Source of the DNA: Streptomyces fildesensis
Lineage (GTDB): Bacteria; Actinomycetota; Actinomycetes; Streptomycetales; Streptomycetaceae
Direction: 5' to 3'
NCBI RefSeq assembly: GCF_016107395.1
Contig: NZ_JAAIKO010000001.1
Span: 620,001 to 684,000 of the forward strand
Length of the DNA: 64,000 bases
Part shown: positions 20,231 through 48,399 of the stretch, one piece after another
Layout of the letters: each line of letters opens with the position of its first letter
Numbering within the stretch: position 1 is the stretch's first letter
The notes under the pieces: model-generated
What the model saw: the letters and a program-made list of their open reading frames with translations, nothing else
Told to the model about the DNA's origin: nothing
Database searches by the model: none
Program-made: the position numbers and the translations under genes

Positions 20231-20382
20231 GGTCTTTCTCCTTCTTTTCTGCACCGGCCGGATCAGGTACCGGTGTCAGTGTCCGACGGGCGTGTGCCTG
20301 CCAGAAGTCCTTGCCGAACCGCGCGGAGGCGGGGACCAGCGGGGTGAACCGCGGTCGGGCCCGCCTCCGCGACGGAGTCGGA

Positions 20383-36539: not shown

Positions 36540-36848
36540 TCAGAGCTTGATCTCGATGTCGACGCCAGCCGGGAGGTCGAGACGCATCAGCGAGTCAACC
36601 GTCTTCGGCGTGGGGTCGAGAATGTCGATGAGCCGCTTGTGGGTGCGCATCTCGAAGTGCTCGCGCGCATCCTTGTACTTGTGCGGCGACTTGATGACGC
36701 AGTACACGTTCTTCTCAGTGGGCAGCGGCACCGGGCCTGCGACGTGCGCACCAGTACGCGTCACCGTCTCGACGATCTTCTTCGCCGAGGAGTCGATGAC
36801 CTCGTGGTCGTACGCCTTGAGCCGGATGCGGATCTTCTGTCCCGCCAT
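36540..36848 (-). CDS. rpsJ: 30S ribosomal protein S10
   Basis: S10 (102 residues: [20 protein letters not shown]..., ending [11 protein letters not shown]) is both a 30S head protein and, as NusE, part of NusG-linked antitermination. First gene of the S10 operon; its untranslated leader shares a 26-nt sequence with the rpsL leader. Confidence 0.99.
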
Positions 36849-36908: not shown

Positions 36909-36934
36909 CCGACCCACGCGGTCGGGCGTGTCGC
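36909..36934 (-). promoter_or_regulatory. 26-nt leader motif shared with the str operon
   Basis: Twenty-five of 26 bases match 48202-48227 in the rpsL leader. The motif contains CCGACC-CACGC-GGTCGG, a 6-bp hairpin. It lies 61-86 bases upstream of the rpsJ start, similar to the 50-75 bases in the rpsL leader. It may be a structured RNA element or a DNA site. Confidence 0.65.
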
Positions 36935-37180
36935 ACCCCTTCTCATAAATTTCCGCAAGCGGAAATCCCTCGGAGAAGGAAGCGCGGCGCTCTGACCGCA
37001 GGATGTGGTGAAGACTCCCACCGGGTGCCTGGCCGGAACCGCACTAACGCTTCCCGGAAGATTCCCGTACGTCCGTCATGCCACCAAGAGGCGGATCATG
37101 ACGACGAGTACTGTGGGACTCGCTTCCGGTCCTCCCGACGGGAGGCGCGCAGCATCGGCGCTCGACCGAGCAACTTGGCT

Positions 37181-47780: not shown

Positions 47781-48152
47781 TTACTTCTCCTTCTTGGCGC
47801 CGTAGCGGCTGCGGGCCTGCTTGCGGTTCTTGACGCCCTGGGTGTCCAGGGAGCCGCGGATGATCTTGTAGCGAACACCCGGCAGGTCCTTCACACGACC
47901 GCCACGCACGAGCACGATGGAGTGCTCCTGGAGGTTGTGGCCCTCGCCCGGAATGTAGGCGGTGACCTCAATCCCACTGGTCAGACGCACACGGGCCACC
48001 TTGCGAAGCGCCGAGTTCGGCTTCTTCGGGGTGGTCGTGTACACACGCGTGCAAACACCGCGGCGCTGAGGGGAACCCTTCAGCGCGGGTGTCATATTCT
48101 TCTTGACCTTGTCCTGCCGGCCGTTCCGGACCAGCTGCTGGATCGTAGGCAC
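47781..48152 (-). CDS. rpsL: 30S ribosomal protein S12
   Basis: S12 controls decoding accuracy and is the streptomycin target. The 123-residue sequence retains Lys43 and Lys88 ([18 protein letters not shown]), so it looks streptomycin-sensitive, and Asp89, the residue methylthiolated in E. coli. First gene of the str operon, with a leader of about 210 nt from a strong promoter. Confidence 0.99.
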
Positions 48153-48201: not shown

Positions 48202-48227
48202 CCGACCCACGCGGTCGGGTGTGTCGC
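48202..48227 (-). promoter_or_regulatory. 26-nt leader motif shared with the S10 operon
   Basis: This sequence differs from 36909-36934 at one base only. It has the CCGACC/GGTCGG hairpin and lies 50-75 bases before rpsL, downstream of the promoter at 48371-48399, so it is transcribed into the str leader. Confidence 0.65.
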
Positions 48228-48370
48228 GGACCCCGCACGTCCCCGTGGAGCAGAGAACGTACGTATGTCGGGTGTCGCGGCCTCGGTGTCCCCGTGCGAT
48301 ATCGGTGACCTCCCGGCCAGAGGCTGGGGGCACGCGCAAGGACCCGGGCACACCCCAGGCACAAGGTCAG

Positions 48371-48399
48371 ATCGTACCTATCGCATCGGCTCCGGTCAA
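48371..48399 (-). promoter_or_regulatory. Promoter of the str operon
   Basis: On the minus strand a -35 box TTGACC (48394-48399), 17 bases, then a -10 box TACGAT (48371-48376) fit the principal sigma factor very well. Transcription would begin near 48364, about 210 nt before rpsL. The region 48153-48370 contains no gene. Confidence 0.7.

Follow-up and report, generated by a model that had tools for sequence, protein, structure and literature searches.

A putative composite WhiA-type site shared by the str and S10 leaders of Streptomyces fildesensis and other Actinomycetes

Why should the leaders of two separate ribosomal protein operons carry almost the same short sequence, and what reads it there? 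The question was raised by a stretch of 64,000 nucleotides of Streptomyces fildesensis DNA (the window), in which an earlier note had claimed a near-identical 26-nt motif in the str and S10 leaders. Comparison within the window bore this out, with a single mismatch separating positions 48202-48227 from positions 36909-36934 (25 of 26 bases equal).

Two copies in the window and their conservation in the class

Read on the minus strand, the element is CGACACRCCCGACCGCGTGGGTCGG, with one copy 5' of rpsL, the first gene of the str operon (ribosomal protein S12; 47781-48152, minus strand), and another 5' of rpsJ, the first gene of the S10 operon (ribosomal protein S10; 36540-36848, minus strand). 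An alignment of leaders puts its length at 25 bp, with conservation dropping sharply outside positions 1 and 25. The putative composite WhiA-type site of the str leader is then CGACACACCCGACCGCGTGGGTCGG at 48202-48226 (minus strand), its 3' end 49 nt before the rpsL GTG (48152), and that of the S10 leader is CGACACGCCCGACCGCGTGGGTCGG at 36909-36933 (minus strand), 60 nt before the rpsJ ATG (36848). By sequence, the cores of the two sites are GACACACC (48218-48225, minus strand) and GACACGCC (36925-36932, minus strand). The rest of the str site is a putative auxiliary half, CGACCGCGTGGGTCGG (48202-48217, minus strand), delimited by the conservation profile, and contains most of the 6-bp inverted repeat CCGACC/GGTCGG, which had also been pointed out beforehand and is found in the element. 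The search for extra copies that the earlier note proposed gave two sites only, with no further match at up to three mismatches in the 9.4-Mb genome and 0.00 matches at that threshold in shuffled windows.

The element was matched in 199 of 200 genomes of the family, nearly always in exactly two copies, and in 178 of 197 genomes of the class Actinomycetes, of which reduced genomes of 1.3-1.5 Mb retain CAACACACCCGACCGCGTGGGTCGG. It stands in sense orientation, 28-199 nt upstream of the start codon, in 100 of 112 rpsL leaders and 60 of 102 rpsJ leaders; these counts are not an unbiased frequency, since some of the regions were collected through the position of the motif and others through the S12 gene irrespective of the motif. 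An exact-pattern scan over 84,980 species genomes returned at least 80 loci. Among the matches listed (80 loci), 57 lie upstream of rpsJ and 22 upstream of rpsL, on the coding strand, with the remaining locus adjoining a contig end, and the hosts among them include Streptomyces, Micromonospora, Actinoplanes, Nocardioides, Mycolicibacterium, Arthrobacter, Brevibacterium, Leifsonia and Cutibacterium. Beyond the class there were few strict matches, each with at least one mismatch and chance-like. The earlier note had considered that the motif might be unconserved in relatives or randomly placed, and neither is the case: the element is conserved across the class, restricted to two copies and set in one orientation in the rpsJ and rpsL leaders. 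The whiA-positive genomes of genus g83 (family f36) that were examined have no site 5' of rpsL. Three str leaders of that family without the WhiA-type site (L142, L143 and L161) have in common CCCCACGGCATAYCCACCACAC... and ...GCTGTCACCGTGCAGCA, which may represent another kind of regulatory element for str.

The distribution of the two copies follows the layout of the operons. At 93 loci with both genes, both sites were present in 46, the str site alone in 40, the S10 site alone in 5 and neither in 2. The gap between tuf and rpsJ had a median of 148 nt when rpsJ was without a site versus 593 nt when it had one (p = 1e-14, without phylogenetic correction), and an rpsJ with no site of its own, as it usually lies closely behind tuf, is presumably transcribed from the promoter of str. 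The element is used once per transcription unit, heading the main ribosomal protein operons.

Leader RNA or double-stranded DNA

In the profile of 160 leaders the flanks of the 25-bp block hold little information, and the invariant bases fall in the core, in CCCG and, within the would-be loop, at C16, G17 and G19; the most constant letters of the block are ACAC, CCCG and these same three. One way to read such a block is as a leader RNA element, in which the transcribed hairpin or its single strand would bind S7, S12, L4 or S10 and repress their own operons. The choice of operons suits regulation by a ribosomal protein, the inverted repeat is intact in 54 of 100 str leaders and 45 of 60 S10 leaders, and the str copy is predicted to be transcribed in Actinomycetes, where a strong predicted promoter lies 5' of the site in 87 of 100 str leaders (1.5 in shuffles). 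The hairpin itself argues the other way. Across 65 distinct sites no compensatory change was found in any of the 6 pairs, all six pairs were intact in only 18, and the variation of the would-be stem is one-sided, its 3' side varying without a matching change on its 5' side. Single-sequence folding of both leaders was no better than that of shuffles, two alternative pairings were also without compensatory change, and Rfam gave nothing relevant in either leader at gathering or permissive thresholds. Of the two properties that the earlier note suggested testing, conservation is found in the sequence, and covariation is absent from the RNA pairing. The RNA hairpin was rejected as the functional element on the absence of covariation and on folding no better than that of shuffles.

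Two other RNA candidates were tried and set aside. For mimicry of rRNA, the 18-letter core pattern gave best matches with 2-4 mismatches on loci that hold 16S or 23S genes, and the sole 2-mismatch match falls outside the 16S match. A shared attenuator, suggested by a hairpin seen by eye about 15-30 nt 5' of the site, was rejected, as it occurs in only a few of the 160 leaders. An intrinsic-terminator-like hairpin followed by 5-6 T does stand just 5' of the WhiA-type site in the S10 leaders of L177, L178 and L179 and in the str leader of L083, which suggests an attenuator in some lineages only; with a convincing stem and T-run in so few leaders, this hairpin is not part of the element. Ribosomal leaders such as L17-Actino-Proteobacteria (RF03132) likewise lie in the 5' leaders of ribosomal protein operons and are widely conserved, whereas the element has neither a covarying RNA structure nor an Rfam match and in some lineages precedes the promoter. 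In the part of Eckert and Weinberg 2020 available to us, no actinobacterial S10 or S12 leader was found. The window does hold an L17-Actino-Proteobacteria ribosomal leader of its own, at 20249-20304 (minus strand; 62.3 bits, above the cut-off).

In the window, consensus prediction places the str promoter at 48371-48399 (minus strand), with a -35 box TTGACC (48394-48399), a 17-bp spacer and a -10 box TACGAT (48371-48376), so that the str site lies about 140 bp inside the predicted transcript. In Actinomycetes the distance from the predicted transcription start down to the str site is mostly 90-200 bp, an S10 promoter was predicted for a minority of leaders only, and no promoter was found between the site and the start codon in 160 leaders. 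Four genomes from Actinomycetota classes other than Actinomycetes have a diverged site that directly precedes a consensus-like promoter instead: GCTACGCCCGGCCGCGTGG then tTTGACA in L303, GAGACGCCCGGACGCGTGG then tctgTTGACA in L306, GATACGCCCGGATGCGTGG then cgtTTGACA in L326 and GATACGCCCGGGCCGGTGT then gcaaTTGACA in L329. There the site is presumably not transcribed, and its place just 5' of the -35 box argues that the element acts as DNA, which together with the lack of covariation leaves regulation through leader RNA quite improbable.

The same four genomes bear on the idea of a pause or antitermination element, which would act in the moving transcription complex through a NusG-family protein or NusA, in the manner of ops, and aid the transcription of long operons. 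Strand-specific orientation, a position in the leader, a single copy heading each long transcription unit and strict sequence conservation without RNA structure would all fit. A site upstream of the -35 box in other classes does not, nor do the match to the WhiA core, the WhiA ChIP peak at rpsJ and the co-occurrence with whiA described below, and we regard this idea as very improbable. The RNA options of the earlier note (a ribosomal protein, NusG/S10 antitermination, a functional hairpin) are not supported, with no covariation, no Rfam match and no resemblance to rRNA found, and a site upstream of the promoter in other classes.

Other conserved stretches were seen in the two leaders. A second GACAC (GACACCCGAC) at 48267-48276 (minus strand), about 50 bp 5' of the str site, is partly conserved among relatives. 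Just past the predicted promoter, at the 5' end of its leader, str has TTGTGCCTGGG...CCCGGG (about 48343-48364, minus strand), which reappears in variable form in str leaders throughout the class and may form a conserved 5' hairpin of its own. In the S10 leader, GGACGTACGGGAATCTTCCGGGAAG at about 37045-37070 (minus strand) is strongly conserved within the genus of the window and is unrelated to the WhiA-type site.

The WhiA core and known WhiA sites

The earlier note could put no name to the sequence, a point that is answered for the core: positions 2-9 of the element, GACACRCC, are the core of the known WhiA site GAYACRCY, which has been demonstrated upstream of rpsJ. Across the 160 site-bearing leaders these positions are near-invariant save the A/G position, with position 7 being A or G in 157. 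The relaxed core alone was uninformative in GC-rich genomes, giving dozens of matches per genome, many more than a reversed control, an excess that probably reflects coding-sequence composition. The genome of the window encodes one WhiA, with WhiA_N, LAGLIDADG_WhiA and HTH_WhiA domains, whose nearest solved structures are the WhiA chains of 8dy7 and 8dy9. In S. narbonensis and S. litmocidini, which we take to be relatives of S. venezuelae, the element spans about -85 to -62 of rpsJ. This is around the position of the WhiA ChIP-seq peak in S. venezuelae, where rpsJ is a listed target whose peak lies 75 bp upstream of its start codon, and where a whiA mutant expresses rpsJ at a lower level (Bush et al. 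2013, PMC3781837). The S. venezuelae footprints elsewhere have only GACAC in common, which the element shares, while the element is a long composite and rpsL is absent from the selected target table of that paper (PMC3781837); in its text as available to us, no description of the long composite was found.

The closest known parallel is in Mycoplasma gallisepticum, whose WhiA binds the GAYACRCY core 5' of rpsJ, the helix-turn-helix (HTH) contacting the core and the LAGLIDADG domain contacting an auxiliary motif (Fisunov et al. 2024, PMC11701221). From the parts of this study available to us, most species with whiA have the core upstream of rpsJ, and in some clades the core is followed downstream by an auxiliary motif specific to the clade; repression of rpsJ by M. 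gallisepticum WhiA is modulated by ATP, and at the Mycoplasma sites, 22-40 nt downstream of the start, WhiA affected initiation more than elongation (PMC11701221). On this model, the str core (48218-48225) would be the HTH contact and the auxiliary half (48202-48217) the putative contact of the LAGLIDADG domain. The Mollicutes rpsJ site, as described there, and the actinomycete element have the same core and operon, an auxiliary motif (putative in the actinomycete element) on the same strand 3' of the core, and a place downstream of the start. The putative actinomycete auxiliary half, unlike the Mollicutes GTTGT, is longer and GC-rich and contains an inverted repeat, the str operon carries a second copy, and the distance from the start is mostly 90-200 bp (actinomycete str, predicted start) versus about 22-40 nt.

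The presence of whiA itself was also compared with that of the site. Inside the class 14 of 14 tested genomes have whiA, hence co-occurrence is uninformative there. Outside it, whiA was scored by Pfam in 60 genomes and 33 str leaders were examined with the class-derived pattern at up to three mismatches, and a diverged copy was found in 9 of 17 whiA-positive versus 0 of 16 whiA-negative genomes of other actinobacterial classes (Fisher p = 0.0009, without phylogenetic correction, the lineages not being independent). At least two of the nine matches are weak on a position-weight matrix, a rank test with that matrix on whiA-positive versus whiA-negative str leaders was only suggestive (p = 0.08), about half of the whiA-positive genomes outside the class have no recognisable site, and rpsJ leaders outside the class gave no comparable whiA-linked signal. 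Given the weak matches, the rank test and the non-independent lineages, the co-occurrence is supporting rather than decisive for WhiA.

WhiA and WhiB act jointly at many Streptomyces promoters, which lends some weight to another possibility, that the operator belongs to a regulator other than WhiA, or that a partner of WhiA (e.g., WhiB or an unidentified factor) reads the 3' half. The 25 conserved bp are more than the GACAC common to Streptomyces WhiA footprints, and C16, G17 and G19 of the 3' half are as invariant as the core. WhiA footprints are nevertheless reported to be about 20 bp with two protected regions, and in Mycoplasma a motif further downstream is read by the second domain of WhiA. 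A single protein can thus explain how long the element is, and a different or additional reader seems unlikely.

A proposed operator for str and S10

Taken with the evidence above, the element is most likely a composite double-stranded DNA operator for WhiA that couples the str and S10 operons. The common regulator that the earlier note had proposed for these operons, a DNA-binding protein being among its options, is well supported. The C-terminal helix-turn-helix of WhiA would bind GACACRCC, its LAGLIDADG (homing-endonuclease-like) domain would contact the downstream half CGANNNCGNGGGTCGG, and the bound protein would tune early transcription of both operons jointly by growth or energy state, perhaps by modulating promoter escape or early elongation. 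Action at promoter escape or early elongation is preferred, if weakly supported, because the str site mostly lies so far downstream of the predicted start; the distance of about 140 bp in the window is unusual for a regulator of initiation. The auxiliary half also counts against the operator reading, being longer than the known WhiA requirement, as footprints elsewhere share GACAC only. The sign of regulation is uncertain, as the published effects are opposite, activation in Streptomyces and repression in Mycoplasma. That rpsJ has a site linked to WhiA is already known; that WhiA also binds the copy at str, what the auxiliary half does, and in which direction and by what mechanism the element acts are our inferences. 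In the main texts available to us, no description was found of the copy at str, the composite form of 25 bp, the pattern of one site per transcription unit or the switch in position relative to the promoter.

WhiA is widespread in Gram-positive bacteria, and its role is poorly known beyond sporulation in Streptomyces and control of rpsJ in Mycoplasma. A composite site kept throughout the class, at essentially two operons, offers a precise and testable target, suggests that a single DNA-binding protein coordinates str and S10, and may account for the retention of whiA in non-sporulating, genome-reduced actinobacteria. More tentatively, the coupling of str and S10, and not sporulation or cell division, might be an ancient role of WhiA that is widely kept in Actinomycetota, with one composite operator per unit, readable inside the leader or 5' of the promoter, adjusting the output of ribosomal proteins to growth or ATP state.
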